Shown: one piece after another, positions 29,171-62,858 of the stretch
How positions within the stretch are numbered: position 1 is the first letter of the stretch
Layout: each line of letters begins with the position of its first letter
Origin: Fibrobacterota bacterium
GTDB taxonomy: Bacteria > Fibrobacterota > Fibrobacteria > UBA11236
NCBI GenBank assembly: GCA_028287465.1
Contig: JAQBPO010000089.1
Span: 1 to 64,000, forward strand
Direction: 5' to 3'
Length of the DNA: 64,000 nucleotides
The notes under the pieces: model-generated
Told to the model about the DNA's origin: nothing
Databases searched by the model: none
Seen by the model: the letters and a program-made list of their open reading frames with translations, nothing else
Position numbers and translations under genes: made by a program

Positions 29171-29333
29171 AATTCCATCGTGATGCTTCGAAGCCGGCGT
29201 CGGTCCGCGTTGAATCCGCCCGTCCATGGGTGCGGGGCCAGGAACGACCCGCGCAAACCGGTAGCCGCCCGCTCACGGAATCGGTCCATGGCTTATCTTA
29301 GCGGGACAAGGGTGGGGAGAAATTGGGCCGTTG

Positions 29334-33397: not shown

Positions 33398-33693
33398 GGC
33401 ATTCTTCCTCATTTCGCGATTCCCCATCGCCTCACGTCCGCGCCTGCCGGCGTTTCCCTTATAAAAAGGCCGCTACGCCCGTTACGCGGTGATTTAATCG
33501 GTCCGGCCGGGGCCGCTTCCGCCCCGGACCCGCGGAAACGGACCGCAGAAGTCGGCATTCCGGTCCTGGGGTCATCTTGACCGCCTCCATGGGGGCTTGC
33601 GCCATGGCCGAAGCGGGCTCGGCGCATTATCCTTTCACCAGCGGCGGTTCCGCCAAAGCCTAAAACGGACTCGGAATCTTGGGGGAGATGAAG
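33398..33693. other. Divergent promoter region between two sugar-dehydrogenase-like genes
   Basis: 296 bp without a supported gene. A TATAAG-type -10 candidate for the leftward gene lies in the TTTTTATAAGG patch (minus strand, about 33456-33472). A second AT-rich patch near 33493-33500 could serve the rightward gene. Confidence 0.4.
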
Positions 33694-35022
33694 ATGCGTT
33701 CGAAAACCAGCGTGGCCATGGTCGCGCTCATGATTGGATCCGGATCCGTCCGGGCCGCGACCTTCACGGATGCGAAATTCTCGGAACAGGCCATCGCCAC
33801 CAACCTGGGCCCCACCGCTATGGAAATCGCGCCGGACGGCCGCATCTTCGTCTGCTCCAAGAACGGCGTACTGAATGTGATCAAGGGCGGGCAGCTGCTG
33901 CCCAAACCCTTCCTCAAGCTCACCGTTCCCACCGTGAGCGAACAGGGCCTGCTTGGGATCGCCCTCCATCCGAAGTTCGCCGACTCCCCTTACGTCTACG
34001 TCTATTACACCGTCGCGAACCCGAACCATAACCGGGTGAGCCGGTTCCGGGCCCGCGGCGATACGGCCGACGGCGAGGAGCAGCCCATCTTCGACATGGA
34101 CGATGTCACGGCCGCCAACCACATGTCAGGCGCCATCCACTTCGGCAACGATGGCATGCTGTATATCGCCTCCGGCAACAGCGCCTCTTCCGCCAACAGC
34201 CAGAACATCGCCACCACCCTCGGGAAAATCCTCAGGATCAAGCCGGACGGAGGCATCCCCGCGGACAATCCGTTCTACGCGAAGACCGCCGGCAACGCAC
34301 GCGCCATCTGGACCACGGGCATGCGCAATACCTTCACCTTCGCCGTGGACCGGCTCACCGGCCGGATGTTCGGATGCGAGGTGGGCGATGGATCGGAAGA
34401 GGTGAACGAACTCCTGGGCGGATCGAATTACGGATACGGGACGCAGGAAGGGTACAACCCACCCCGCGATCCGGCCGCGCTCATCGGGACCTTCCGGCCC
34501 GCCATCTATTCCTATAACGGAGGTTGCATCATCGCGGCGGCCTTCTATCCCCCATCCGGATCCCGGAACTTCCCCGAAGCCTTCCACCGCAAATTCTTTT
34601 TCGCCGACCATAATGCGGGCTGGATCAAGGTGCTGGACATCGACAATCCCAGGAACGTCGCCGACTTCGCGGCCGGCGCCTCCAATCCCGTGGACATCAA
34701 GTTCGCCTCGGACGGGTCCATGTATTACCTGAGCCGGGGCCGCCAAGGCGGCAGCCTCATGCGGGTCCTATACGCTTCCCCCAATTCCCTGGCCTCTCCC
34801 GGGGCCCGCATCCGCGGCGCGGGCGAATGGACCCTGGTGGCGATCGCCGATGGCCGGTTTCCCGGGAAGGCGGGGGTCTCCCCTGCGGAAATCCGCGGCC
34901 TGGACGGGCGCGGCCATGCGCTATCACTCCCGGGTCCCGGAGCCCTGGGGCTGCGTTCGGAAGATCCCAGGCCCATCACCAATGCCGCAAACAACGGCTT
35001 ATTCTGGATCCGGTACCGCTGA
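33694..35022 (+). CDS. Secreted sugar-dehydrogenase-like (PQQ-type) propeller protein
   Basis: 442 residues. The signal peptide MRSKTSVAMVALMIGSGSVRA precedes a GSDH-like propeller (about 25-360): MEIAPDGRIFVCSKNGVLNVIKGG, QGLLGIALHPKFADSPYVYVYYT, AIHFGNDGMLYIASGNS, LGKILRIKPDGGIPADNPF, ARAIWTTGMRNTFTFAVD, FADHNAGWIKVLD. A short C-terminal region ends in FWIRYR after EIRGLDGRGHAL, a weak match to the sorting-type tails of its neighbours. The start at 33694 has GGGGGAG six bases upstream; two earlier in-frame starts overlap or precede that site. Divergent from the paralogue at 31832-33397. Confidence 0.88.
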   Translation: MRSKTSVAMVALMIGSGSVRAATFTDAKFSEQAIATNLGPTAMEIAPDGRIFVCSKNGVLNVIKGGQLLPKPFLKLTVPTVSEQGLLGIALHPKFADSPYVYVYYTVANPNHNRVSRFRARGDTADGEEQPIFDMDDVTAANHMSGAIHFGNDGMLYIASGNSASSANSQNIATTLGKILRIKPDGGIPADNPFYAKTAGNARAIWTTGMRNTFTFAVDRLTGRMFGCEVGDGSEEVNELLGGSNYGYGTQEGYNPPRDPAALIGTFRPAIYSYNGGCIIAAAFYPPSGSRNFPEAFHRKFFFADHNAGWIKVLDIDNPRNVADFAAGASNPVDIKFASDGSMYYLSRGRQGGSLMRVLYASPNSLASPGARIRGAGEWTLVAIADGRFPGKAGVSPAEIRGLDGRGHALSLPGPGALGLRSEDPRPITNAANNGLFWIRYR

Positions 35023-47614: not shown

Positions 47615-48457
47615 TTAATCGCCATGCTCGGGATGGGAGACTTGGATAGCGTCCGGAAAGAAGGGGCTCTTTGCGGTGGGAATCCGGGCACCCTTGACCG
47701 AGTAAGCGGTCTCGCCGGCATCTCCCCGGGAATACAAAACTGAATAAACGGAACTTTCGGAAGTCCGCCTGCGAAAGGCCGATTCGGGCTGCTTCCCAAG
47801 GGCCGTGGTCGCCGGCGCCTCGCTCATTTCCACTTCCTTGATCAGCAAGGTCATCACGATGCCCTGGTGGACCTGGAAGGCCAGATGCCCGGTCGTTCCC
47901 AGCTTGGCGCTGGTCACGTCCACGGTCGGCATGCCGTTCATGGTGATATAGGCCCGGGAACCCTTCATGACCAGGACCGCCTCGTTCCAATCATTGGGGC
48001 GGTACCATTTCTTGGCGTCCTCGGCCTTGGGCTGGGCGATCCATCCCCAAGGTTGGGTGGCGGTGGAGTAGATCCCGCCGGAAAAGCTTTCGTCCATTTC
48101 CAATTGGGCCCCGGCCATGCCGCCTTCGCCGCCCTCCTGGGCGTGGAAGTACAGGCCGCTGTTCCCGCCGGAGGTGAGCTTCCATTTGTACCGGAGCCGG
48201 AAGTCGCCGAAGGACGAGTCGCTCACCAGGTGCCCGAAATCCCCTTCCAGGGTATGGGTGCCCTCGATGACCCCGTCGACCACGCGCCAGGATCCGCCTC
48301 CCTGGAAATGCCAGCCTTTGAAGGTCTTGCCGTCGAAGATGGGATGATAGGCCTGGGCCCGGGCCTGCCCCGGAAGGCAGAAAAGCGCCAGGGCGAGGGC
48401 CGCCGAAGCCAGGGAGGAGTTCGATGTGGGGATGGACCCCGGGTTATGGCGGCGCAT
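47615..48457 (-). CDS. Secreted DUF1080 (3-keto-disaccharide hydrolase family) protein
   Basis: 280 residues. The signal peptide ends near CLPGQARA, then a DUF1080 concanavalin-like domain (about 38-210): HPIFDGKTFKGWHFQGGGSW, VVDGVIEGTHTLEGD, FGDFRLRYKWKLTSGGNSGLYFHAQ, QLEMDESFSGGIY, WNEAVLVMKGSRAYITMNG, GHLAFQVHQG. The family includes hydrolases acting on 3-keto glucosides, though many members only bind glycans. The last about 55 residues lie outside the domain and show no sorting motif. It starts four bases after the outer-membrane protein's stop, so the two are coupled. Last gene of the operon. Confidence 0.88.
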   Translation of the reverse strand: MRRHNPGSIPTSNSSLASAALALALFCLPGQARAQAYHPIFDGKTFKGWHFQGGGSWRVVDGVIEGTHTLEGDFGHLVSDSSFGDFRLRYKWKLTSGGNSGLYFHAQEGGEGGMAGAQLEMDESFSGGIYSTATQPWGWIAQPKAEDAKKWYRPNDWNEAVLVMKGSRAYITMNGMPTVDVTSAKLGTTGHLAFQVHQGIVMTLLIKEVEMSEAPATTALGKQPESAFRRRTSESSVYSVLYSRGDAGETAYSVKGARIPTAKSPFFPDAIQVSHPEHGD

Positions 48458-48461
48458 GGGG

Positions 48462-49964
48462 CTACATGTTCACTTGCAGGCGGAGGATGTAATACCAGGA
48501 GTTCTTGTCCAGCATGGTATCGTACTTATAAGGCGAGAAGTCGAACCGGATGGGACGGGTATGGTCGTTCGCGATCTGGGCGTCGATGGAGAAATACTTT
48601 CCGACGGACTTCTTGGAGGAGACGGACCATTTGAGATCATCGCTGGTATAGGGCTTGGTGATGTCGATGGACTTGGAAGGGCTGTTCATGGCGTCGAAAT
48701 TCACGATGGGCAGGCCGTTCTGCAAGGTCTTGTAGTTGATGATGGGATACCGGTTCTTCCAATACTCCACCTCGATGGCCAGGTTGTCCAATAGGCCGAA
48801 GGTGGGGATGGTCATGCCCGCCATCATCGGCATGCGCTCGTTGCGGTTTTCGTAGAAGATGGGATAGTTGGCCCAGCCCAGGACGTCGACTTCGCCGTAC
48901 AATTTGAGATCGACCTTGTCGCTGATGAGGGAGCCCAGGTTCAAGGAGGCGCGGCCCATCAGGAGGGTCCCCTTGAAGGTGTAATAATCGCGCTTGAGGC
49001 GGCTGGGGGCGCCGGCGGTGTCGGCGCGGTTGAGGCTGTCGACGAGGTTGCCCTGGCGGATATAGGACGTATCGATCTGGTCCAATTGGTTGGCGCGGGC
49101 GGAATCGGCGGCGGTGGCGGATTTGGAATCCCGCAGGGACTTGGCCTCGCCCGCGAAAAACTTCCCGGCCTGCTTGTAATACAGGTCATCGCCGAAATAG
49201 GTGACGCCGTTATAGGTGAAATAGGAATTGAAATTCCGCTCCGGCGTCGAAAGCGCCGGGCTGTTGGGCAGGATATTGTTGAGGTTGATTCCCGCGCCCA
49301 GTTCCAGGAATCCCAGACGGACGCTGGTGACGTAGGCCAGGTTCACGTCATTGAGCGGGAAGACCTCGTCGCTCAGGGACACGATCAAATCGTTCTTCCA
49401 CTTGCCTCCGAAGAGATCCTTTTCGACCAGGACGCCCTTGGTGCTGGAGTAGGAGGAGTTGATCAGGTCCCAGCTGCCGTTGATGGTCGTATTGGGATAC
49501 GGCGTCGACCGGAACAGGTATTCGCCCAGGTTCCTGGAATCGGGATTGTACTTGTAGGGCATCAATCCGACGGAGACCGCCAGGGAAGGATCGCTCACCT
49601 CGCCGAATTTGTAGGTGGCGGACGCCTGTCCGATGGAGACGGCGGAATTCCGGACCTTGGAATAGTCGAACCCTTTGTTGAAAGGGAAGAACTGGAAGAA
49701 GAGGCCTCCCAAGGCCAGGTTGACGTCCATGCGATCCTCGATGGTCGCCGACTGGGAAATCCACCCGATGGTGCGGTTGATGGTGAAATTCTCGGCGTTG
49801 CCGCCGGGCTCGAAGAAGGTCAGGCCCTTCATCTGCCCGTATTCCACGGCCAGGCCGGCGTGCAAGGGCTTCAGGGCGACGTCCGCGGAAGCCAGGGAAA
49901 AGCACAATGCGGCCCCCAGCAGGATTTTAGGCATGGAGATCGAATGGGGCGAATGGGGGCGCAT
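48462..49964 (-). CDS. Outer-membrane beta-barrel protein
   Basis: 500 residues. Signal peptide (MPKILLGAALCFSLASA after a short basic start) and then alternating aromatic/polar strands typical of a barrel: YGQMKGLTFFEP, GLFFQFFPFNKGFDYS, SVGLMPYKYNPDSRNLGEYLF, VRLGFLELGAGINL, YYTFKGTLLMGRASLNLGSL, LKLYGEVDVLGWANYP, ending WYYILRLQVNM. A Ser/Ala/Asp-rich coiled region sits at about 245-300. GAGGA precedes the ATG at 49964 at good spacing, and a later ATG at 49934 lacks one. Possibly a porin or transporter for the products of the flanking secreted enzymes. Family not recognised beyond fold. Confidence 0.78.
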   Translation of the reverse strand: MRPHSPHSISMPKILLGAALCFSLASADVALKPLHAGLAVEYGQMKGLTFFEPGGNAENFTINRTIGWISQSATIEDRMDVNLALGGLFFQFFPFNKGFDYSKVRNSAVSIGQASATYKFGEVSDPSLAVSVGLMPYKYNPDSRNLGEYLFRSTPYPNTTINGSWDLINSSYSSTKGVLVEKDLFGGKWKNDLIVSLSDEVFPLNDVNLAYVTSVRLGFLELGAGINLNNILPNSPALSTPERNFNSYFTYNGVTYFGDDLYYKQAGKFFAGEAKSLRDSKSATAADSARANQLDQIDTSYIRQGNLVDSLNRADTAGAPSRLKRDYYTFKGTLLMGRASLNLGSLISDKVDLKLYGEVDVLGWANYPIFYENRNERMPMMAGMTIPTFGLLDNLAIEVEYWKNRYPIINYKTLQNGLPIVNFDAMNSPSKSIDITKPYTSDDLKWSVSSKKSVGKYFSIDAQIANDHTRPIRFDFSPYKYDTMLDKNSWYYILRLQVNM

Positions 49965-50029
49965 GGTTCCTCGTTGTGCTGGGTGGATGGGCGGACCCGC
50001 CCGGCGTCGGCCGGGGCGTCGGCCATGAT

Positions 50030-51010
50030 TCAAAAACTATAGACCTTGGTCCTGGAAAGGGCCCCGTGGGAGTCCACGTCCAGGAAATAGATGCCTTTTC
50101 CCGGCAGGTCCATCCGGCCATCCGTAACGGGGCCGATACCCCGGATCTCCTTGGCCACGACTCCGTAGGCGTCGACCAGGCGGACCAGGTACCTTCCGGC
50201 GTCCGGGAGGCGGTACTGGACCGCCAGGCCGGAAACGGTCACCGAAGGAGCCATGTTCGAAGCGATGCGGTTGAGGCCGGTCGGCAGCTTGCAGCTGCCG
50301 TCGTCATTGGTCGCTTCCGCATTGTAATTGGTGGCCTTGGGATTGGTGCAGCCCGCCACATTCAGCTTCCGGAGCTTGATGCTGTTGTATTCGATCATGT
50401 CGAAAGGGGGATGGCTCTGCAAGGCGAAAATGGTGCCTTCCAGGTTCTCGGCCTTGGTCAGTACGTAATCGAGGCAATGGGCCCCGTTCAGCCAGACGGA
50501 AACATTGGCCCCGTTGACGCGGGCCGTCGCCGTCGTCCACTCCCCCACCTTCAGGGTACGGCGGCAATTGTCGATATCCTGCCCGTCGAACTGCAGGAAG
50601 GCGGCGCATTCCTCGAACAGGCGTCCGCTATAGGCCTGGGCCACGTCCAGCTGCACGCCGCATATCTGGTAGCTATCGCCGCAGGTCGGGCCGGTCTTGG
50701 TCCGGTCCGCGCATTGCGAACGAATCTGGATGCCGCCGTTCGCGTTCACGGAGGACAACTTGTAGACGACCTCGATTTCCGCGTCCTTGATGGGCTCTTT
50801 CCAGACCAGGAAGGTCTTCTGGGATCCGCCTTTGGAGGAGAGGATCCCGTTCGTGATGGACCAGGGCGGATTGCCCTGGGAGGCCCAACCGTTGTTCAGG
50901 TCCTTCCCGTTGAAGAGTTCCTTCCAGGGACCGGACGGCTTCGTGACCTGGGACAGCGCCAAGGAGGCGGATGCCAGGATGAATAATGCGGTCGAGATGG
51001 ATTTGTTCAT
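50030..51010 (-). CDS. Secreted DUF1080 protein with Cys-motif linker and type-IX-like C-terminal domain
   Basis: 326 residues. Signal peptide MNKSISTALFILASASLALS. A DUF1080 domain covers about 28-215: WKELFNGKDLNNGWASQGNPP, GSQKTFLVWKEPIKDAEIEV, NANGGIQIRSQC, YQICGVQLDVAQAYSGRLFEE. A short GCTNPKATNYNAEA...DDGSC element (about 222-242), common in secreted FCB-group proteins, links to a C-terminal domain of about 75 residues (YRLPDAGRYLVRLVDAYG, GKGIYFLDVD, ending TKVYSF) that resembles type IX sorting domains. AAGGA lies four bases before the ATG. It sits between the sugar-dehydrogenase-like gene and the barrel gene. Confidence 0.87.
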   Translation of the reverse strand: MNKSISTALFILASASLALSQVTKPSGPWKELFNGKDLNNGWASQGNPPWSITNGILSSKGGSQKTFLVWKEPIKDAEIEVVYKLSSVNANGGIQIRSQCADRTKTGPTCGDSYQICGVQLDVAQAYSGRLFEECAAFLQFDGQDIDNCRRTLKVGEWTTATARVNGANVSVWLNGAHCLDYVLTKAENLEGTIFALQSHPPFDMIEYNSIKLRKLNVAGCTNPKATNYNAEATNDDGSCKLPTGLNRIASNMAPSVTVSGLAVQYRLPDAGRYLVRLVDAYGVVAKEIRGIGPVTDGRMDLPGKGIYFLDVDSHGALSRTKVYSF

Positions 51011-51060
51011 GGTGTCCTTGCCTTTCGATGCAGTGGCGCCGTGGTTGTTTCGGAAATCGT

Positions 51061-52809
51061 TCACGGGAGGAACCGGGTGCCGAGGGCGCCCTTCTCCAAT
51101 CCCGCGGGAAGCCGAACCGCCGAACCTTCGAGGGTAGCGGCGGAGCCGGTCTTGCCGGAGGTCGCGGTCCACAGGAGCTTGCCGCCCAGGCTGTAGACTT
51201 CCACCCCGGAATAGCCCTGAGGGATCCGGACCAGGGTCCCGCCCGCCTGGTTGGCGTTGACGATCAGGCCGTTGAAAAGGGCCGGGCGGGCCGCCCCGTT
51301 CCGGGCGATCGGGATCCGGGTGGGAAAGACCGACTCCCGTGCGGCGGGGAGGGGCTTCATCTGGGGATGCGACATGCGGTAGATGTCGTGCCAGGCGAAG
51401 GCGCCGTTGGAGCTAGAGGAAAGCATGGTGATGTACATGTTGCCGAAGGCGTCCTCGGAGAAGGAGGTGATGCCGTTATGCTGCTTGTCGCCGTCGAAGA
51501 CCAGGCTGTTGGGGACCCCTCCCACCTTCACGGGGAGGGCCACGCCCTCCTTGACGGCAATGAAATAGTTGCTCGCCACGTCGGTCACGAAATGGTACCC
51601 GTAGAAAGGCGAGGCCGGGTCCCCGCGGAAGGCCTGGCTCAGGATGATGCAGCTGATCCCCACCCCGGGAAGGGCGGTCTTGCTGCCATGCGTATCCGCG
51701 CCGGAATGGTTGAAATTCCAGGTGCCGTTTGTGAAATCGGAGCAGGTGTAGGTGCGGCCCTTATAGGTGCGGGAATACGGGTTCATCAAGGTCGCGCCGC
51801 TCATGTTGGCCGTATCCGTTCCGATGCCGGTATAGCCGCCGCCGGTGGGATTGCACGGGCCTTCGATGCCGATGCTGTTGCTGCCGACCGCCGCGCCGTC
51901 GCCGCCGTTGCCCCAGCCGTAGTTCTTGCCGGCCTTGATGATGTTGACCTCTTCCCAGGTTCCCTGCCCCACTTCCGCGCCCCAGATGCTCCCGGTGAGG
52001 TAATCGGCGGTGATGGAGTAGGTATTGCGGAAACCGAAGGCGAAGATTTCCTTTTTCACGGCGGGATTGGCCGCGTTGTAGAAGGGGTTGGTGTCCGGGA
52101 TGGTGTACATCCGGCCCCCTTGGGGCTTGGACACGTCGATGCGGAGCACCTTGCGCATGAAAATGGTGCTGTCCCAGCTGTTCTGGCTGTACGCATCGGC
52201 GGTGATGTACAGGAGCTTGTCCTTGCCGAACACCATGTTGCTCGATCCGTAGCCGGTGGAATGGTTGGCCGCGAAAATGGTCGTATCCCGGGTCAGGGCC
52301 TTATAGTCGGCGGATACCTTCCACCGCTCCACCACCACCAGGCCCTCGGCGCCGGGCCCGTCCGCGGAGGTGGGCTTGATGCCCCCGTGGTAGGAGGAGA
52401 CGTTGGCGTACTTGTTGTAGATGATGTAGAAGTAGCGGTTGAAGGCGAAGTCCGGATCGAAGGCGCCGCCCAGGGCCCCTTGCTCCCATCCCTTCATCAC
52501 CACGTTGTTGAAATCGGCGACCTGTTTCTTGGTGTAATCCTTGATGGCGCCGGCCGCGTACGCCTTGGTGGTGTCCGGATAGAGCGACCAGATGTATCCC
52601 CAATATCCCAGCACCAGGAAATGCTCGGGCTTGCCCGGGATTTCCCACATGCCGACCACGGACTGCCTGTCCTTGGCGAAGCTGAGACCCGCCTTGCTCG
52701 TATCGTAGAAAGGCACGACGGTCATGCCGGTGGGAAGCTGGGCCCGCGCGGCAACGGTGAGGCCGAGCATCGCGGCGAGGAAGAGCGGGATTCGGAGCGT
52801 CTTTTTCAT
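51061..52809 (-). CDS. Secreted quinoprotein sugar-dehydrogenase-like protein
   Basis: 582 residues. The signal peptide MKKTLRIPLFLAAMLGLTVA ends near ARA. The GSDH-like propeller (about 25-480) includes HFLVLGYWGYIWSLYPD, GALGGAFDPDFAFNRYFYIIYN, NMVFGKDKLLYITADAYS, MRKVLRIDVSKPQGG, IFAFGFRNTYSITADYLTGS, GYHFVTDVASNYFIAV. It is longer than the other propellers here, with inserts around the Asn/Gly-rich middle (NYGWGNGGDGAAVGSN). The last about 70 residues (GYSGVEVYSLGGKLLWTA ... GALGTRFLP) look like a degenerate type IX sorting domain. AAGGGGA lies nine bases upstream. First gene of the operon; a TATATT box is at 52873-52868. Confidence 0.87.
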   Translation of the reverse strand: MKKTLRIPLFLAAMLGLTVAARAQLPTGMTVVPFYDTSKAGLSFAKDRQSVVGMWEIPGKPEHFLVLGYWGYIWSLYPDTTKAYAAGAIKDYTKKQVADFNNVVMKGWEQGALGGAFDPDFAFNRYFYIIYNKYANVSSYHGGIKPTSADGPGAEGLVVVERWKVSADYKALTRDTTIFAANHSTGYGSSNMVFGKDKLLYITADAYSQNSWDSTIFMRKVLRIDVSKPQGGRMYTIPDTNPFYNAANPAVKKEIFAFGFRNTYSITADYLTGSIWGAEVGQGTWEEVNIIKAGKNYGWGNGGDGAAVGSNSIGIEGPCNPTGGGYTGIGTDTANMSGATLMNPYSRTYKGRTYTCSDFTNGTWNFNHSGADTHGSKTALPGVGISCIILSQAFRGDPASPFYGYHFVTDVASNYFIAVKEGVALPVKVGGVPNSLVFDGDKQHNGITSFSEDAFGNMYITMLSSSSNGAFAWHDIYRMSHPQMKPLPAARESVFPTRIPIARNGAARPALFNGLIVNANQAGGTLVRIPQGYSGVEVYSLGGKLLWTATSGKTGSAATLEGSAVRLPAGLEKGALGTRFLP

Positions 52810-53074: not shown

Positions 53075-54739
53075 CTAGGGCTTCTGGGTCTCGTAATCGA
53101 GCTTGATGCGATCCGGGGAGAGGGCCCGGTTGCAGAAACGGATTTCGTCCAAGGCCCCGTTGAAGGGGGAGTCGAGCGGATGCGTCGCCAGGGCCTTGCC
53201 GATGCGCAAAGCGCCGCCGTCCAATTTGAGCGCCTGGGTGGGAACGATGTCCGCGGGCGTCCCGTTGACGTAGGTGGTGATGATGCTTTGGGCCGCGTTG
53301 TAGACCGTCGCGATATGGGTCCACTTCCCCGCCCGCCCGGATAGCTTGAACACGTTCTGCCAGGTGGCCGGATCGAATCCCGTGGATCTATCCGCATCGT
53401 ACGCGCCGAATTGGGTCAGCGTATCCGGGCGGATCAGGAAGTGCACGTCCTTCAGGGTGGCGAATTCCCCGAAATCGAGGATGGTCTGGCGCGTGGCCGT
53501 CGTGTCGTATTTGATCCAGAAGGATACCGTGTAGCTGGTATTCCCCGTGAACCCCTTGGGCATGGCGGCGGTCAAAGTGCCCACGGTGGACAATGGCCCG
53601 CCCGCGAAAGCCTTGGCCCCGGCCACGATACCGGGCACCAGGGCGCCGGGATTGATCGAGGCGGCGGTGGCGTGGTTGGCGTTGGGCGTCGCGTCGTGGT
53701 ATCCGCCCGCGTCGTCATTCGCGGCTTCGTCCAGATGGTAGACGGTCGCGAAGCCGGCTTCCGGACCGAAGACGCGGAGACCGGAGGGATCCTCCTCGCC
53801 CGGCGCGGTCAGGCCCCGGCCCCAATGCATGGTGATGTATTGCTTCGAATCGGACCCGGCCACGGTGTCCAGGCGCGTCCAGATTTCCGCTCTTTTGGCG
53901 GACGCGTCCCAACGTTCGATCTGGTAAGGGATGGGCGACCCGTCCGGCTTGGAAAACCGGACGTCCTGGCCATTCGGCCGGGCCTGGCTGAAGTCGAAGT
54001 TGGCGGCGTTGAGCCGCACCAGGAACGGGAAATCCGTCACCGCGCCGGTAACGCCCATGGCTTCCGTGTTCACGGGGATATTGCGCGAGGACGCCCAGGT
54101 CTGGAAAGGAGAGGTGGCCAAGGTGGTTTCCGCATCCACCTCGAAGTCGCGCGCCAAGGTGATGATTTTCCGGTCCGCTTCCGCATCGACCACGAGCAGC
54201 AGGCGCGGGAACCTCCCCACGGGCACGTTCGCGATGCGCACGGAACCGTCCGCGCGCGCGGTCGAATCCACGCGCAGAAGCGCGTTGGTCCCCGGGATAT
54301 AGACGTATCCCGCTTCCCCTTCGCCCAGGAAATCCACGATGCGGACCCTTATCGCGCCCGGCATGCCCAAAGTCCCGTCCAAGGTCGCCAGGCCGCCTCC
54401 GGTCCGGACCGCCACGTCCTGCGCCAGGGAAAGGGTCCCGTGCGAGCTGTCCGAGAACTCCAGATTGTAACGTCCCGGGGCCACGTCGGCGAGCTTATAG
54501 GTGCCCTTGGAATCCGTCCTCGTCTCCAAGGGGAATCCGCCGGTATCGTCCGCGGCGGGATTGAAATCCTCGGGCAGGAGGAGCACGCGGGCGCCCGCGA
54601 TCGGCCGGCCTTCCACGTCCTTCACCACGCCCGTAAGGCCGTTCGTGGTTTCCGAACCCGAATTGCCCCCGCCTTCGCACCCGTGGAAGGGGAGCGACAA
54701 GGCCAGGATGGCGGAAAGGAAAAGGATCCGGCGCATCAT
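53075..54739 (-). CDS. Lipoprotein with carboxypeptidase-like, DUF2341 and LamG domains
   Basis: 554 residues starting MMRRILFLSAILALSLPFHGC, a signal peptide ending at a likely lipidated Cys. A carboxypeptidase-regulatory-like beta domain (about 35-110; GLTGVVKDVEGRPIAGARVLLLPED) is followed by a second beta domain, DUF2341 (about 215-310; FPFLVRLNAANFDFSQA, DVRFSKPDGSPIPYQIE, KQYITMHWG), and a LamG/concanavalin domain (about 375-550; YTVSFWIKYDT, WTHIATVYN, NGALDEIRFCNRALS). Likely a surface glycan-binding or adhesion protein. GGAAGG precedes the start, which overlaps the upstream stop (ATGA), so it is coupled to the TIGR02147 gene. The longer open frame extending to 55444 is read-through and rejected. 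Confidence 0.88.
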   Translation of the reverse strand: MMRRILFLSAILALSLPFHGCEGGGNSGSETTNGLTGVVKDVEGRPIAGARVLLLPEDFNPAADDTGGFPLETRTDSKGTYKLADVAPGRYNLEFSDSSHGTLSLAQDVAVRTGGGLATLDGTLGMPGAIRVRIVDFLGEGEAGYVYIPGTNALLRVDSTARADGSVRIANVPVGRFPRLLLVVDAEADRKIITLARDFEVDAETTLATSPFQTWASSRNIPVNTEAMGVTGAVTDFPFLVRLNAANFDFSQARPNGQDVRFSKPDGSPIPYQIERWDASAKRAEIWTRLDTVAGSDSKQYITMHWGRGLTAPGEEDPSGLRVFGPEAGFATVYHLDEAANDDAGGYHDATPNANHATAASINPGALVPGIVAGAKAFAGGPLSTVGTLTAAMPKGFTGNTSYTVSFWIKYDTTATRQTILDFGEFATLKDVHFLIRPDTLTQFGAYDADRSTGFDPATWQNVFKLSGRAGKWTHIATVYNAAQSIITTYVNGTPADIVPTQALKLDGGALRIGKALATHPLDSPFNGALDEIRFCNRALSPDRIKLDYETQKP

Positions 54740-55638
54740 GCCTTCCCATCCGCGGCCGGGCCGTCCACGGGTTCGGCCGGCGCCGGAGCGAGGCGCGCCG
54801 GTTCCGGAAGGGAGCCGCCGTTCTCGTCGACGGCGGTCATGGGGAAGACCTGGAAATTGAGCTGGTACACGCAATCGGGTTCGCCGCTGTCCGTCATCAT
54901 GTGCATGATGGACTGCCGCAGCTCCTTGATGCGCGCCTTGATCTCCTCCAGGTCGGAAAACTTCATCGCCACCGTGACCGTGGAGATATCGCGGATGCCC
55001 TTGGGATCCTTGACGAGCGATTGCAGGGCCAGCTCGATGCTTTCCTGCTGGTAGTTCCGGATGGCGGTGGATTGCCACTTCTCGCCCGTGGTGATGGGCG
55101 GTCCGAGCACTTCGTACTTGCCGTCGGAATTGCGGCTGATGATCCCGGTCTTCTCCAAGAGGCCCACGGATTCCCGCGCCTCCTCGACGCTGATGGCGGG
55201 GTGCACGCGCGCGGCAAGGGCCTTGTAGTCGTCCTGGAAATCCCAGAAGGTCAAGAGGGCGCGGATGGCCCCATGGTACCACTTCTTGTAGTAATCGTAC
55301 TGGTTGGGCTCCAGCGGCCGCGACTCCATGCCGCGCAAGGCGATGAGCTTGTCGAAACGTATTTTGATGTCGTCCGGGGTCTTGGCCCGCCCGTAATGGA
55401 CCAGGGCCTCGAAGTATTCCGCCTCCTTCTCGGCCAGCTTGCACAGCTTGGCGACGGGAGCGATGGCGCGTTCGGGAAGCAGGATCTTGCCTTGCATGAC
55501 CTTGACCAGGAAGCCCGGGTCCATGCCCAGGACCTTGCCCATGAAGCGGTAGGAGAAAAAGGAGTTCTGCTTTTTCCGCGCTTCGTAATAGTCCTTCATG
55601 AAGGACTGGTAATTCAGGTAGTCGAAGATATTCAGCAT
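54736..55638 (-). CDS. TIGR02147-family protein
   Basis: 300 residues of the family named from Fibrobacter (TIGR02147/DUF4423). The N-terminal 90 residues (YLNYQSFMKDYYEARKKQ, FSYRFMGKVLGMDPGFLVKVMQGK) look like a helix-turn-helix-type DNA-binding fold, followed by AEYFEALVHYGRAKT and ARESVGLLEKTGIISRNSDGKYEVLG, a winged-helix-like segment. The C-terminal region has STVTVAMKFSDLEEIKARIKELR. A regulatory role is inferred, not established. The family is strongly expanded in Fibrobacter relatives and is commonly next to surface-protein genes. Here it overlaps a DUF2341/LamG lipoprotein by four bases. An acidic Pro/Ala-rich tail ends it. Confidence 0.9.
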   Translation of the reverse strand: MLNIFDYLNYQSFMKDYYEARKKQNSFFSYRFMGKVLGMDPGFLVKVMQGKILLPERAIAPVAKLCKLAEKEAEYFEALVHYGRAKTPDDIKIRFDKLIALRGMESRPLEPNQYDYYKKWYHGAIRALLTFWDFQDDYKALAARVHPAISVEEARESVGLLEKTGIISRNSDGKYEVLGPPITTGEKWQSTAIRNYQQESIELALQSLVKDPKGIRDISTVTVAMKFSDLEEIKARIKELRQSIMHMMTDSGEPDCVYQLNFQVFPMTAVDENGGSLPEPARLAPAPAEPVDGPAADGKA

Positions 55639-56031: not shown

Positions 56032-59000
56032 CTAGAAACGCATGGTGAACTCGCCATGGACGGCCAACTCATGGGTCGACTCCTCCTTCGGCGTATGCCA
56101 TAGCTTGTCGTACTTGTACTGGGTATAGAACATCGCATCCACGTTGTTGGTGAAGTTGTAGGATACCTCCGGCCGCGTCGTCAGGGTGAGGATGTTCTGA
56201 TCCTTCCTCGGATCCCCCCCAGGCAAGGTCCGCTCCGAGAACATGTAATTGGCGCTTCCCGTGACCTTAAGGCGAAGGTTGTTCTCCAGCTTCACGTAAT
56301 AACGCCAGAACTGAAGGCCTTTCTGGGTCTCCACATCGTAGGAGATGGTGGCGTCTCCGCCCAGATTGAAGGCGTCGCGCTTGGTCTTCTTGTCCCCGGT
56401 GCGGAGGTAGGGGATCAGGCTCGTGTCCCGGTAGAAACGGTAAGGCAGCTTTTCCAGGCCCGGGGTCTTTTCGAAGTCCACGGCCTTTTCCAGGCCCGTC
56501 TTGAAACTGAGTTCCCCGCGTACGTCCTTGTTGGTGGTCGCGGCCAGGCGGACGAGGGGATCGAACCGGTAGGAAATCTTGTCCGTTTCCGGCGCCGAAG
56601 AGAAGAGGGCATGCTTATCCTCCTTGCGCAGGTTGAAGGTCGTCGTCGAGGTCATCGATCGGAACGTCTTGCGCAGGAAGGGGATCTTGTTGGCGAAATC
56701 GTTGAAGGTCCCCGTCAGGGTCACGTCCGGCCACACCACGGAGGTGTCGCTCGGAGTGAGGGCGCGGAACAGGGTGTATTCCTTCGTGTATTTGACGTTC
56801 AAGGACATGCCAAGATCGAGCCAGGGGACGGTCATGCCCGTTCCCGCGTCCCAGCTGCGGCTCACCCCGTGGCTGAAGCGGGAATTGGTATTGAGGTTCG
56901 GATCGGGGGCCATCAGGTAATCCATCCAATATGGATTGGGTTCCCCATCGACCAGGGTCCTGAGGAATTGCCCCAGGTCATCATAGACCCAGCCCAGCTG
57001 GTAGGCATAATAGGTGGCCCAATCGTTTTGCCGGTCCAGGTAGTCGTAGGTGAATTCCTCATTGTTGTATTTGTGGCCGACCGAGTAGCTGACGTCGATG
57101 TTCCGCAGGCGCCAATCCTCCATGCGCTTCCGGAAGCTCCCCAGCAGGCCCTTGCCGTCCCCGGTCGGGCCGATGAGAGCCGGCAGGCTCAACGAGCCGT
57201 TGAGCTTGATGTCGTGGTCGGCGTTCGCCTCGAAATGCTCAGGGCTGGTATTGCCGGTGCTATAGCGATCGCGCACCGAATCGGCCCGGTTCTGGTGGAA
57301 GCCCGAATTGAAGTTCGCGCCCATGGTGAGCCAGGAGAAGATGTTCGGGTTCACGTCGGTATGGAAGCTCTGGGTCCGGTTACGCTCCCGGTTCAGGATG
57401 GTGAACTCCTCCCCATGGTGGCCCGGGTACCTGTCGCTGCCGTCCCAATCGAATACGATCGCATTCGCGAACAACCCGTTGTCGATCGCGTCGTCCTCCT
57501 GCCCGAAAAAGGACTTGTCGAAGCTTCCGTGCTCATTGTCGAAGTCCCGGTCCACGGCGAGTCGGTAGCCGAAATTGAAAAATGTCAGCAGGCGCCATTC
57601 CATGTCCACGCCATGCGTCAACTCCACCGCGTAGGTGGGAGCGATCGCCAGGGGCCTATCGAGCTCGTTGCGCGGCTTGTTGACGGTCTCGGTGCGGACG
57701 AAGGAAAGATCCGCCACGGTGAGGTTGAGCTTGTCGGGATACGGGGTCAAGTCCACGCCGGAAAGGAAGGCGGGCATGAACTTCCATTTGTCCGAGAAGC
57801 CCAGGGGCTTGTAGGATTTGTTCTCGAAGGGCGAAAGGCTGTAATGGAGCCTGGTATTGTAGGTGCGGGAACGGTTGGCGGCGTAGAACTCCTCTTTCTT
57901 GGACGACGCGTAGAAATATTCCAGATCGGGCCGCTCGAACACGATCTGGTTCATGCGGTTGGAGGATCGGTGCTCCTTCTTGTAGGAGGTGGAGAATTTC
58001 TCCTCGAACACCGTCGTCTGGTACACGCGGGAATACTGCCGGTCCACGTCGGCAAGGCTGTCGTCCCGGCCCTGGACGGTGAGGTGATCGTCGGCGATGT
58101 CCCGCACGATGTCCATGAAATCGGTGCCGCCCAGGGTCAGATCCGAGGACGGCTTGGTGAACGGCCGCGAAATGGCGCCGTGGTACTGCATGGAGAGGGG
58201 AAGGCTCACGCCCCATTGATCCGGGAAAAGCTTGTTCGCGTAAAGGCTCAGGGTGGTGTTGTAATCCACGGTCGACTGGGAATTGGCCGGCGTGGTCTTG
58301 GTCTCGCTCATGGTGGTGAAGCCGCCGTTGCGGTAGGTCAGGTTCCCGGACACGCCGATGAAATCGGAAAAGTCCAATTGCAGCTGGGTGCGCATGCTGC
58401 TGCCCAGGGAATGATCCACCCCTTCCAGGCGCAAGTCGTTGACCCAGATTTCTCCGGACTGGGAGGCCCCTGCCCCGGAATCGACGTAGATGACCAGGCG
58501 CATCCAATCCACGCGGGACAGGGATGGATTGCCCACCACCGAAAGGGTCAGGGAGGAATCCTTGCGGCCGGAATGCCAGGCTTGCCTGGAAACGGGACGC
58601 CCATTGAAGGCCCGGTACGCGGCGTCGTTCTTCAGGCTGGTCAGATCCGACATGCGGATATCGAATGAGTTCCTCTCCCAGAGCGCGAGGTGCTTGGGAT
58701 CGTAGGAGCCCGCGGTATCCATGTGGATGCGGATCTCGTAATAATCCTTGGAGTCGCGATTGCCTTGATCCTTGCCCAGGCGCAACCCTAGGCTGACACG
58801 ATTGGAATTCATGAATTTGCCATCCTGGCCGAAGATCACGGACTCGGAATCCGGGTGGATCTCCATGCGGATCCTGTCGTACAAGGTCAGATCCTTCGGG
58901 TCGCTGCCGAGCAGACGCGTCGCGCCCGCCACCTCGCCGCGATGCAGGTTCGCGTAACGCAGCACAAGGGACCGCTCGGGAAGGGGTTCGTCGGTCCGGG

Positions 59001-62000
59001 TATCCCTTTCGATCTTGGTATTCGAGGAGGGAAGGTAGCGGCGCTCCTCCTGCTTGTTGATCACCGTAACCTTGAGGCGATTGCTGTCGGGGGTGGCCGG
59101 CGGAACCCTTATGGCCGAACTGTCGCTCAAATCCCCGGTGGCGAAACGATCCGCGTCGGTTTCGAAATCCCGGTTGCGATCGCTCTCCTCCCAGGTGTTC
59201 CCCACGATATTGAGGCGCGCCAGCAAGGTCTGGCTGCGCGTCACCCGGGAAGGCAGGCGGCCCATCCAGGCGCGTACGATCTTCACGTTGGAAAGGATCT
59301 GGGCTTCGCTCTCGCCGCCGTTGCCGCCGATGCGGCTGCCGGTCCCGTACAGGGGGATCTGGTATTTTCGCCACCCGCTCTTGAGCTCTTCGCAATGGAA
59401 GCGGGCTGTGCAGGCGCTGTCCAGGGGCATCACGTAGCGGATGTAGCTGTTCTTCACGTCCAGCACCCCGGAACGATCGAGATCCTCCGTATCATAGGAG
59501 TAACCCCCGGTCCCCTTGTTGTTCCCTTCCGTCCCGTTGACGCGGTAATTCTCCTCCGTGGCCCCTACCGGCTGCTGGTAATCGTCCGCGCCCCGGTCCA
59601 GGTTGCCCACGCCCAGGGGGATGGCGTAGCACGAGGGCTTGCACTCCCATTGCACGCCGGACTCCAGGACGCCCTTCTTGCCGTCGAGCCCCGCGTCCTC
59701 CTTGTTGAAGATGTCCCGCCCCACCTCGATTTCCGATTCCAGCTTCCCATCGGGCCGGCCGCTGTTGACGCCGGTGATGCTGACGTCCTCGGAGACCTGG
59801 CCCATATCGACCGCCAGGGTGCCTTCGCGGCCGTACACGACCACTTCCAGGGTGCGCTTCTTGCTCTGGTTGAACAGGCCCGGGCTGAGCGCCCGCATCA
59901 CGCCGCCCCAGGATCGGCCTTCCAGGTTGTCGTTGGGCTGGAGGGACATCTGCAGCAAGGTCTGCTCGCGGCTGTCGGTATAGCTGTTGCCCGTCGGACC
60001 GTAGATGCGCGAATAAGGCTCCTTCCGGCTGGAGTGCCAGATGAAGGTGCCCTGGTGGCGGAAGTCCAGGGTCTCGTCCGGCTTGCCGTTATCGTCGTAG
60101 GCCGGGGGCGACGCCTTGAACCAGCTGTAGATGGTCATGGGCATGGACAGGATGTTCTCGCTCCCCTCGAAATTGTCGAGGTAGGCGCTTTCCTTGGTAT
60201 TGGGGTTATACCGGCTCTGGGCCACTTCGAATTCGAAATTGGCCTTTGATGGCGCCTCCGTCTGCACGAAGGGGAAGATGTTGGCCGCGCTCGTCATCCA
60301 TTTGGGAGCCCCGGCCAGGCGCGCATTGAATCCCCACAGGAACTGGTTGAAGGGTTCGCGGCCCAGTTCGGGCCGTTCCGAAGTGGTGCTCTGGCTCTTA
60401 TAGAGCAGGGTGGCGCCCAGCAGGCTCTCGTCCGAGATTCCATCCAGCTTGTATTCCAGGCGCGTGCCCAACAGGATCTTGTCCTGGATCTGGAAGGGCG
60501 GGTTGCACTCGTAGCTGATGTCGATCTTGGCGTTGGGATCCTTGGCGCGCGGCGAGAGCAGGGTGATTTGCCCGGTCTCGTAAAGCACCTCGTAGTCGAC
60601 ATTGCGGACGAGCACTTCCGACCCATTGCGAACCAGCTTTTCCGTATCCTTCTCGATGTCGACGCAGGAGTTTCCGCTCACGGAATGGGACGTCTCGCGC
60701 ACGTCGAAGGTGGATTTCCTCTGCTTGCCGGAGATGACGAACTTGTGGACCGTGGAGGCGTTCTGGATCTCGTCCACCGGGTCCTGGTAGATGTGGGTTT
60801 CCGGATTGACGCGCTTCATGGGAGTGAGGCAATTGGCGGAATCGTCGGCGCGGCTGATTCCGCCCAGGCAGGGCAGGACGAAGTAGCCCTGCTCGAGATT
60901 GAAGAGGGTCTGGTCGTCGATGTTCACCTGGCCCGGCTTGTCGGGTTTTTCCAGGCCCAGCTTGCGGATATAGGTTACGGTATCGTTCTGGTCCCGTTCC
61001 AGGCTGTCCGAGTTCTTGACCATTTTGACCCGGAAGCTTTCCTTGTCCTCCTTGGAGATGCGGCTGATGCCGTAGACGTTCCGCCACATGAGATCGTCGA
61101 GCTCGGGGACGCCCACGGCGGAACGGGAGTGGATGAGGACCAGCTTCCGGAGGTCGGTGGCGCTATTGGTGAAGTCCCCCTGCCAACGCACGGCGATGGA
61201 CATGTTGCGGTTGCCGCTCGGCACGGTCAGCATGCGCATGCGCTCGTCGTAGAAGAACTCCGTGCCTTCCTTCATGGGCCGCCAGAATCCCGTTTCGCAG
61301 CGCTCGGGGATGATTCCGCCGTCGAGGTTGTACGGGCAGGCGATGGAGGTATCCTTGACCGTGGTCTCCGTCGTGCCCTGTTGCAGCTCGAAGACCTGGA
61401 CGGGACGCCGGCCCGTCCCTCCGTTGAGGTACCGCTGCGAATTCGCGTCCCAGTTCCGGGCGTCGCCGTATTCCGCGCGGTCCTGGAGCTTGAGCCAGAA
61501 GTGCCGGTGCAAATCGATGTCCCGGTCCTCGCGCACGGCATCCGACAGGACCGAACCCACTCCCAGGGTCTGCCGTTCCTGGGAACCGCCCTCCTGGGAC
61601 GCGATGGTGGTGACCTCGAGGCCGCCGAAGCGCATGCGCATCTTGAGGCCGAAAAGGCCTTTGTGGCTTTCGGTATAGCCCGTAAGGCTCGTCCCGGTCA
61701 GGGCCAGGGAGGTGTTTCCCGCCTCGATTTCCTGGATGATGTCGTCTTCGAGCTCGTCCCCTTCGCCCTTGTAGGTGATCTTCAGCTGTTCCTTGAGGTT
61801 GGTGCCGAAGCCCTCTTCGCTGTTGATCTCGATATTGATGAGCCGGCCGATGGATCCCTTGACGGAGAAGGCGGGCTGCTGATCCATGTGCAGGGTCGGG
61901 AACCAGGTATCTCCGCCGTTGGGCGCCCCGTTGCCGGAAAGGCGCGTGCCTTCCACCACCAGTTTATAGGAACCGTTGATGCGCAGGCGGGGCTTGTCCA

Positions 62001-62532
62001 CGCCGATCCGCTTCATCCAATCCGGCACGTTCACGGGCAGGACGATGTCGAGCATCCCCGGCCCGCCCGCCTGGGAAGCCTCTTCCTTGCCGATGAACTG
62101 ATTGAGCCACAAGCGCCGCAGGGCGAGGTCGCTCATGTCCATGGAGTACGAATTCAACTCGCGATAATAGGACTGCCACATGGGCGTGGTGTCCTGGGAG
62201 CCCGGCTGCGCGTCCGGAGGCGGCAGTCCCACGTACCGGATGATCTCCACCTCGCGGGTTTCGAAATTGACGTTATGGCGCCGTTTGAGGTACACGCTGT
62301 TGACCTGGAGCATGCCGTGGCCGCCCGTGCTCTCCACGCCCTTTTGCGGCAGCAGTTCATCGAGCGGTTTCGCCGCATCCGGCACGGCCAGGTAGGATTG
62401 CTGTTCGATGTAGATGGCGTCGCCGGGAACCGCGCCCAAGGCGAGTAGGAAGCAGGTGGAGAAAATTCGCCTTAGGGACCGGGACTCCGCGCGATACGCG
62501 CGCGTGTCCGGAAGGGCTGGGTTTTCAGGCAC
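56032..62532 (-). CDS. sprA: SprA-like outer-membrane protein (type IX secretion translocon family)
   Basis: About 2,166 residues. SprA is the giant outer-membrane barrel through which type IX cargo passes in Bacteroidota. Evidence: the size; the family signature ESAYLDNFEGSENILSMPM with MTIYSWFKASPPAYDDNG; SPGLFNQSKKRTLEVVVYGREG; repeated beta-strand-rich stretches with EIWVNDLRLEGVD; and a C-terminal F (HGEFTMRF) as in barrel proteins inserted by the Bam machinery. A signal peptide (RSLRRIFSTCFLLALGAVPGDA) precedes IYIEQQSYL. The GTG at 62532 is the only canonical start between the TATAAT box (62691-62686) and this signal peptide. The N-terminal residues before the signal stretch are unusually long, so the exact start is uncertain. 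Other type IX genes (sprT, gldKLMN, porV) are not in the window. Confidence 0.85.
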   Translation of the reverse strand: MPENPALPDTRAYRAESRSLRRIFSTCFLLALGAVPGDAIYIEQQSYLAVPDAAKPLDELLPQKGVESTGGHGMLQVNSVYLKRRHNVNFETREVEIIRYVGLPPPDAQPGSQDTTPMWQSYYRELNSYSMDMSDLALRRLWLNQFIGKEEASQAGGPGMLDIVLPVNVPDWMKRIGVDKPRLRINGSYKLVVEGTRLSGNGAPNGGDTWFPTLHMDQQPAFSVKGSIGRLINIEINSEEGFGTNLKEQLKITYKGEGDELEDDIIQEIEAGNTSLALTGTSLTGYTESHKGLFGLKMRMRFGGLEVTTIASQEGGSQERQTLGVGSVLSDAVREDRDIDLHRHFWLKLQDRAEYGDARNWDANSQRYLNGGTGRRPVQVFELQQGTTETTVKDTSIACPYNLDGGIIPERCETGFWRPMKEGTEFFYDERMRMLTVPSGNRNMSIAVRWQGDFTNSATDLRKLVLIHSRSAVGVPELDDLMWRNVYGISRISKEDKESFRVKMVKNSDSLERDQNDTVTYIRKLGLEKPDKPGQVNIDDQTLFNLEQGYFVLPCLGGISRADDSANCLTPMKRVNPETHIYQDPVDEIQNASTVHKFVISGKQRKSTFDVRETSHSVSGNSCVDIEKDTEKLVRNGSEVLVRNVDYEVLYETGQITLLSPRAKDPNAKIDISYECNPPFQIQDKILLGTRLEYKLDGISDESLLGATLLYKSQSTTSERPELGREPFNQFLWGFNARLAGAPKWMTSAANIFPFVQTEAPSKANFEFEVAQSRYNPNTKESAYLDNFEGSENILSMPMTIYSWFKASPPAYDDNGKPDETLDFRHQGTFIWHSSRKEPYSRIYGPTGNSYTDSREQTLLQMSLQPNDNLEGRSWGGVMRALSPGLFNQSKKRTLEVVVYGREGTLAVDMGQVSEDVSITGVNSGRPDGKLESEIEVGRDIFNKEDAGLDGKKGVLESGVQWECKPSCYAIPLGVGNLDRGADDYQQPVGATEENYRVNGTEGNNKGTGGYSYDTEDLDRSGVLDVKNSYIRYVMPLDSACTARFHCEELKSGWRKYQIPLYGTGSRIGGNGGESEAQILSNVKIVRAWMGRLPSRVTRSQTLLARLNIVGNTWEESDRNRDFETDADRFATGDLSDSSAIRVPPATPDSNRLKVTVINKQEERRYLPSSNTKIERDTRTDEPLPERSLVLRYANLHRGEVAGATRLLGSDPKDLTLYDRIRMEIHPDSESVIFGQDGKFMNSNRVSLGLRLGKDQGNRDSKDYYEIRIHMDTAGSYDPKHLALWERNSFDIRMSDLTSLKNDAAYRAFNGRPVSRQAWHSGRKDSSLTLSVVGNPSLSRVDWMRLVIYVDSGAGASQSGEIWVNDLRLEGVDHSLGSSMRTQLQLDFSDFIGVSGNLTYRNGGFTTMSETKTTPANSQSTVDYNTTLSLYANKLFPDQWGVSLPLSMQYHGAISRPFTKPSSDLTLGGTDFMDIVRDIADDHLTVQGRDDSLADVDRQYSRVYQTTVFEEKFSTSYKKEHRSSNRMNQIVFERPDLEYFYASSKKEEFYAANRSRTYNTRLHYSLSPFENKSYKPLGFSDKWKFMPAFLSGVDLTPYPDKLNLTVADLSFVRTETVNKPRNELDRPLAIAPTYAVELTHGVDMEWRLLTFFNFGYRLAVDRDFDNEHGSFDKSFFGQEDDAIDNGLFANAIVFDWDGSDRYPGHHGEEFTILNRERNRTQSFHTDVNPNIFSWLTMGANFNSGFHQNRADSVRDRYSTGNTSPEHFEANADHDIKLNGSLSLPALIGPTGDGKGLLGSFRKRMEDWRLRNIDVSYSVGHKYNNEEFTYDYLDRQNDWATYYAYQLGWVYDDLGQFLRTLVDGEPNPYWMDYLMAPDPNLNTNSRFSHGVSRSWDAGTGMTVPWLDLGMSLNVKYTKEYTLFRALTPSDTSVVWPDVTLTGTFNDFANKIPFLRKTFRSMTSTTTFNLRKEDKHALFSSAPETDKISYRFDPLVRLAATTNKDVRGELSFKTGLEKAVDFEKTPGLEKLPYRFYRDTSLIPYLRTGDKKTKRDAFNLGGDATISYDVETQKGLQFWRYYVKLENNLRLKVTGSANYMFSERTLPGGDPRKDQNILTLTTRPEVSYNFTNNVDAMFYTQYKYDKLWHTPKEESTHELAVHGEFTMRF

Positions 62533-62858
62533 GGAAATGCGCGCTGCCCTCCGATACGGGACACGAAAGGAATGATGCCTGGGCGGCGGGCGCCCGGCCT
62601 GGAAATCGATCCATGCAAATTCCTCGCGAACCTCACCGTAACGCCGGACGGGTTCAACCCCTGCCGATTCGGCACAGGTCGGATTATTATACGAAAAAGG
62701 CCAATTCAAACCTGTCCCGGCCTGAAATATTTTTTCCACAAGCGGTTGATATTACTGGGAGTACGGCCTCCTTTTACTACCTTGATGCCCCCCGGCAACC
62801 AGGGGCCCAGCCGGCCTGTTTGCATTGGCTCCACCCCGCGGCAAAACTCCATAATCGA
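62533..62858. other. Divergent promoter region sprA / rsmA
   Basis: 326 bp between the divergent starts of sprA and rsmA. A consensus TATAAT lies on the minus strand at 62691-62686, so the sprA leader would be about 147 nt. AT-rich sequence at 62725-62780 (TTGATATTACTGG on the plus strand) may serve rsmA. No RNA gene or repeat is evident. Confidence 0.5.
62686..62691 (-). promoter_or_regulatory. Consensus -10 box upstream of sprA
   Basis: TATAAT read on the minus strand, the best -10 match in the window. The -35 region is not a clear TTGACA. It supports a start for sprA downstream of about 62680. Confidence 0.5.

Follow-up and report, generated by a model that had tools for sequence, protein, structure and literature searches.

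Four adjacent genes on the minus strand of the window (the whole 64,000-nucleotide stretch of DNA that was analysed, from an uncultured, environmental lineage of Fibrobacterota) constitute a genuine conserved module, probably for the processing of carbohydrates at the cell surface and their uptake. By sequence analysis and structure prediction, the genes (47615-52809) carry export signals and encode a barrel with a porin fold, two DUF1080 proteins and a divergent propeller of the GSDH type, in an arrangement that is conserved in relatives. The reading that we favour, and hold to be somewhat probable, is that of an operon in which the porin is matched to a surface DUF1080 protein (DUF1080-A) and imports the sugars that the latter releases. 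Considering that porins of this family are paired with DUF1080 or ThuA genes throughout the genome, the operon is one example of a larger system, and this pairing is the new part with respect to an earlier sequence-only reading of the same DNA. The complete route of oxidation, cleavage and uptake proposed in that reading is unproven; a 3-keto glycoside as the substrate and the GSDH-type propeller as the oxidant are only weakly inferred.

All four open reading frames were found on the minus strand. They encode a GSDH-family six-bladed β-propeller protein of 582 aa (51061-52809), DUF1080-A of 326 aa (50030-51010), an outer-membrane porin-like barrel of 500 aa (48462-49964) and DUF1080-B of 280 aa (47615-48457). 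The close spacing that had been described for them was confirmed: successive genes are 50, 65 and 4 bp apart, and DUF1080-B starts 4 bp past the stop codon of the barrel gene. Signal peptides were recognized by eye on the four products, plausible ribosome-binding sites were present at least for the GSDH and barrel genes, and the GC3 of the operon genes (0.80-0.87) was coding-like. A promoter and terminator scan of the locus gave nothing above chance and speaks neither for nor against a single transcript. Upstream of the operon there are an unrelated LamG/DUF2341 protein and a TIGR02147 regulator-like protein, and downstream an RNase G/E-like gene (by eye). A protein of the TIGR02147 paralogue family (DUF4423) is encoded at 54736-55638, and a similar gene adjoins the syntenic operon of the relative L084 (3957-4967, minus strand).

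The identity of the two DUF1080 proteins, already proposed from the sequence, held in the search with PF06439 (3-keto-disaccharide hydrolase, formerly DUF1080): DUF1080-B scored 110 bits and DUF1080-A 91 bits, against a cut-off of 26.8. Conservation was judged over 34 paralogues, eight relatives and PDB 4jqt. The positions conserved in the family, namely, an Asn-Ser-Gly motif, an Arg, a Trp, an Asn-Gly and a Gln, are largely kept in both proteins, the exceptions being the replacement of Ser by Gly in the motif of DUF1080-A and of Arg by His in DUF1080-B. PMC9007349 describes DUF1080 members that act on 3-keto glycosides: BT2157 hydrolyses 3-ketotrehalose, and CCNA_01705, encoded beside a lactose 3-dehydrogenase, is needed for lactose use. 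The family by itself does not imply 3-keto chemistry, because members with plain endoglucanase or xanthanase activity exist, such as the endo-xanthanase/lichenase of Thermogutta (PMC10881899), and the DUF1080 domain overlaps CBM66 (PMC5673643). These last two observations favour an alternative without any oxidation, which we regard as quite possible although behind the favoured reading. In this alternative the propeller would be an HHIP-like binder and DUF1080-A a GH16-like endoglucanase or a lectin domain, both of them surface proteins that bind or hydrolyse glycans and deliver oligosaccharides to the porin.

The C-terminal region of DUF1080-A resembles the type A sorting domain of the type IX secretion system (TIGR04183), with 13.0 bits for the protein of the window against a cut-off of 23, a shortfall that counts against the favoured reading. 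Its orthologues in L078 (26.7 bits) and L095 (27.3 bits) exceeded this cut-off, and, because orthologues carry the type IX signal, DUF1080-A is probably displayed on the surface by this system. Searches for the sorting domain (TIGR04183/PF18962) gave no match in DUF1080-B or in the propeller, and DUF1080-B had no NCBIfam match. Since no sorting domain was detected in it, DUF1080-B may be periplasmic rather than extracellular. Of the extracellular action attributed to both DUF1080 proteins, the location is supported for DUF1080-A by its probable export and is doubtful for DUF1080-B. A plausible export route for the operon products is encoded in the window itself, outside the operon: an SprA (Sov-type) translocon of the type IX system, 2235 aa long (56032-62739, minus strand; PF14349 SprA_N, 85 bits). 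The type IX surface enzymes of Fibrobacter succinogenes, of the same phylum, share the proposed C-terminal export signal (TIGR04183), but they are cellulases, which have been proposed to be exported by this route, and other CAZymes (PMC6851124).

The propeller matched PF07995 (GSDH) with 93 bits against a cut-off of 25. Its model was of medium confidence (pLDDT 67), and Foldseek (E 3.6e-16 to 5min) placed it nearest to the soluble glucose and aldose sugar dehydrogenases and to HHIP. A profile of the propellers of the operon clade fitted HHIP (E 7e-11) and 2ism (E 4.5e-11) equally well. Like the soluble PQQ glucose dehydrogenase (1cru) and the aldose sugar dehydrogenases (2g8s, 3das), it is a six-bladed propeller that keeps the equivalents of Arg228-Asn229 of soluble glucose dehydrogenase, here Arg261-Asn262. 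The His that would be catalytic, His183, is 4 residues off the aligned position of His144 and is followed in the operon clade by an altered loop; unlike in those enzymes, the PQQ-binding residues Lys377, Arg406 and Arg408 are aligned to Ala, Gly and Thr, in a region where the alignment is weak. With the same weak alignment, these three residues were also lost in the orthologues and in nearly all the paralogues examined in the genome. His183 and Arg261-Asn262 are invariant among the propellers of the operon clade. Three more genes of GSDH-family propellers, near one another, are found in the window (29331-30818, plus strand; 31832-33427, minus strand; 33679-35022, plus strand).

With several of its PQQ-ligating positions changed, this protein is not established as a quinoprotein; if it is an enzyme, its cofactor site would differ from that of the known PQQ enzymes. 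Those characterized in the GSDH family and fold closest to it oxidise C1. With these residues lost and the His shifted, the proposal of a quinoprotein-like dehydrogenase that makes 3-keto glycosides was not sustained, and the oxidation step is the weakest link of the route. In the genome, pqqC gave no match, a search in which no control genome matched either, and the homologues of pqqE were all far below the cut-off, which no control exceeded. The lost PQQ site, the PQQ synthesis genes that were not detected under these weak controls and the closeness of HHIP, equal to that of the dehydrogenases, are also points against the favoured reading. GMC oxidoreductases (PF05199), the family to which we take the flavoprotein LacA to belong, were absent from the genome in a search whose control was positive in 5 genomes, and a LacA-type dehydrogenase was accordingly rejected as the true oxidant. 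The genome encodes twelve Gfo/Idh/MocA proteins. Given the absence of GMC-type 3-dehydrogenases, the likely makers of 3-keto sugars, if any, are the propeller family or one of these twelve.

The same data bear on two alternatives. A scheme without oxidation gains from the missing PQQ ligands, from the fit of the propeller profile to HHIP and from the binding of HHIP to heparin (PDB titles 7pgm and 7pgn); against it, the invariant charged and His residues of the operon clade suggest a conserved site and not a bare scaffold, and the genome also pairs porins with ThuA. The complete earlier route, in which the GSDH protein would be a PQQ dehydrogenase producing extracellular 3-keto glycosides, the DUF1080 proteins would cleave them and the barrel would import the products, is in our judgement unlikely. 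In its favour are the known activity of DUF1080 members on such glycosides, the invariance of His183 and Arg261-Asn262, the lack of a GMC-type enzyme, which leaves the oxidation otherwise without a known enzyme, the adjacency of GSDH and DUF1080 genes above random expectation (5 places in the genome versus 0.9 expected) and the multihaem cytochromes, possible electron acceptors, located beside barrel-DUF1080 pairs at other loci. It is opposed by the altered PQQ and His positions, the failure to find pqqC or a pqqE above the cut-off (the controls failing likewise), the C1 specificity of the PQQ enzymes of the same fold and the alternative way to 3-keto sugars offered by the Gfo/Idh/MocA proteins. 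What remains of it is the porin-like pore, the conserved neighbourhood and the probable export of DUF1080-A, the PQQ oxidation being unsupported by the sequence.

The barrel had no match to Pfam or NCBIfam in profile searches. An AlphaFold2 model of 504 aa, built from an alignment of 88 sequences, had a pLDDT of 92.2 and a pTM of 0.89; it comprises about 16 strands and, at roughly residues 264-320, a helical insertion. Foldseek against the PDB retrieved OmpM1, Omp-Pst1, OmpK35, OmpF and OmpC (E 7e-14 to 7e-8), the target-normalised TM being about 0.55-0.68 for OmpM1, OmpF and OmpC. No FadL/PorV or MtrB structure was among the best 50 matches listed. The outer-membrane barrel recognized from the sequence is thus corroborated by its predicted fold, and, on the basis of this fold and of the porin matches, it is best read as a pore of the general-porin type, and not as a TonB receptor, a FadL/PorV protein or an MtrB conduit. 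It is quite unlikely that the barrel is instead a partner in secretion or electron transfer (a PorV/SprF-like type IX anchor or an MtrB-like conduit) rather than a nutrient pore. Barrels of the family are often beside genes of type IX cargo, and multihaem or dihaem cytochromes accompany them at some loci, but the Foldseek comparison favours general porins and most barrel clusters have no adjacent cytochrome. In the favoured reading, the type IX system would export DUF1080-A, and possibly the propeller too, and DUF1080-A, retained at the surface of the cell, would attack a glycoside or glycan there; the adjoining porin would admit the small sugars or keto-sugars released to the periplasm, where DUF1080-B might complete their cleavage.

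The barrel family appears to be restricted to Fibrobacterota. When 84,980 species were scanned with one conserved barrel motif, 68 loci emerged, all of them consistent with this phylum, although a single motif could miss distant relatives. The relatives with names were MAGs of Fibrobacteria, Fibrobacteres, Fibrobacter sp., Chitinispirillaceae and Chitinivibrionales, and the others were contigs of the isolate AM_1606, which match G025, a genome of the same family as that of the window. The genome from which the window comes holds about 30 barrels in 17 clusters, together with 34 DUF1080, about 48 GSDH and 23 ThuA proteins. Nine of the 17 clusters have a DUF1080 gene within 1 kb and 4 more have a ThuA gene at this distance. 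This makes 13 of 17, and 4000 random placements averaged 0.83 and reached 5 at most. ThuA is a family linked to 3-keto disaccharide metabolism. Taking into account that DUF1080 or ThuA adjoins the porin at so many places, the pairing suggests a fit between every porin and the product of the protein encoded beside it, in analogy with SusCD units. The direct adjacency of GSDH and barrel genes was not enriched in the genome (0 of 17 clusters within 1 kb, by domain coordinates). The high copy numbers of the GSDH, DUF1080 and barrel families could by themselves suggest a chance adjacency, but this is very improbable and largely refuted by the random-placement test and by the persistence of the arrangement in four other genomes.

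The usual layout is one DUF1080 gene followed by 1-3 barrels (at C4, C73, C74 twice, C84 and C90), and a GH20 gene adjoins another barrel cluster. At C10:3177-7140, and in the relatives L080 and L092, a pentahaem cytochrome (C10:5884-7140 in the genome) accompanies the barrel-DUF1080 pair, and the locus of L080 also has an MFS nucleoside-type symporter. The C10 locus (L058, 3177-9302) comprises co-directional genes for a barrel, a DUF1080 protein, the pentahaem MtrC-like cytochrome and an AraC regulator, with a divergent Gfo/Idh/MocA oxidoreductase, and it is a candidate for a full 3-keto glycoside locus that also includes an electron-transfer protein. Elsewhere in the genome, four ThuA genes and one DUF1080 gene are grouped in about 7 kb (C95:37466-44574), and three Gfo/Idh/MocA genes and one ThuA gene follow one another and resemble a thuAB-type cluster for 3-keto disaccharides (C44:47661-53037).

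GSDH, barrel and DUF1080 genes are found together, with rearrangements, in four relatives of two genera (L084, L095, L079 and L078), whose GSDH proteins are 71, 46, 46 and 43% identical, respectively, to that of the window. L079 has a head-to-tail run of five genes (GSDH, GSDH, barrel, barrel, DUF1080), and L077 has only the barrel and DUF1080-A (67 and 58% identical) without an adjacent GSDH gene. No orthologue of DUF1080-B was found at the syntenic loci of the relatives. The neighbourhood is thus conserved in these relatives for its three other components, but DUF1080-B is not a conserved part of the operon, which also weighs against the favoured reading.

A strong expansion of DUF1080 (at least 8 copies) was seen only in the order of the genome studied, which has the 34 copies mentioned. 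In the large family f3 of the same class, presumably Fibrobacteraceae, there are 0-1 weak DUF1080 matches per genome, and the barrel matches are weak at most. In the deeper lineages of Fibrobacterota, DUF1080 is rare and the neighbours of barrels include YncE-type/MauG dihaem propellers, as well as a protein that has an HZS-alpha-like domain. Because barrels also occur in lineages where strong DUF1080 matches are few or lacking, DUF1080 is not their sole partner, a further point against the favoured reading. In L096, L129, L131, L146 and L163 the barrel adjoins a dihaem protein of 624-633 aa, which is a YncE-like propeller at L096 and, via L088, at the L146 locus; MauG-like and HZS-alpha-like domains are present at L096. 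This neighbourhood is a conserved redox cluster. The neighbours of 573-649 aa of the distant barrels had been suspected of being GMC dehydrogenases, and were identified instead as YncE/MauG propellers, TPR proteins and DUF7133-like proteins.

By comparison with known systems, the pairing is like the SusCD loci of Bacteroidota, where surface glycan proteins are encoded with their own outer-membrane channel and in many versions per genome. It is unlike them in that the channel is predicted to have a 16-strand porin fold and not that of a TonB-dependent receptor; a SusCD system proper was discarded, as a profile search that matched its Bacteroides positive control found no SusD in the genome. The oxidoreductases of the B. 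thetaiotaomicron cluster BT2156-BT2160 are presumably Gfo/Idh/MocA proteins, and we take this cluster to have neither GSDH nor a porin of the barrel's family. The resemblance to it lies in a DUF1080 hydrolase for 3-keto disaccharides, the 3-ketotrehalose hydrolase BT2157 (PMC9007349, PMC11501099). The Caulobacter system of LacABC and CCNA_01705 likewise has an exported DUF1080 protein with an exported dehydrogenase as gene neighbour, but it is periplasmic, whereas the one proposed here is at the surface, and the available part of PMC9007349 mentions no dedicated porin for LacABC.

The recurring pairing gives a likely role to a porin family that had no annotation. DUF1080 has been linked to an oxidative pathway that replaces the classical hydrolysis of glycosides. 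The pairing bears on the use of glycosides at the surface in phyla without SusCD, and it defines specific genes, and a phylum, for testing the extracellular use of 3-keto glycosides. We advance only tentatively the broader proposal that environmental Fibrobacteria have evolved their own counterpart of SusCD, in which phylum-specific porins, about 30 copies per genome, would each be paired with a surface DUF1080 or ThuA protein, sometimes together with a GSDH propeller and multihaem cytochromes, for the extracellular cleavage of 3-keto glycosides and the import of the products. Free-living Fibrobacteria have hardly been cultured, and the operon is a lead to their diet.
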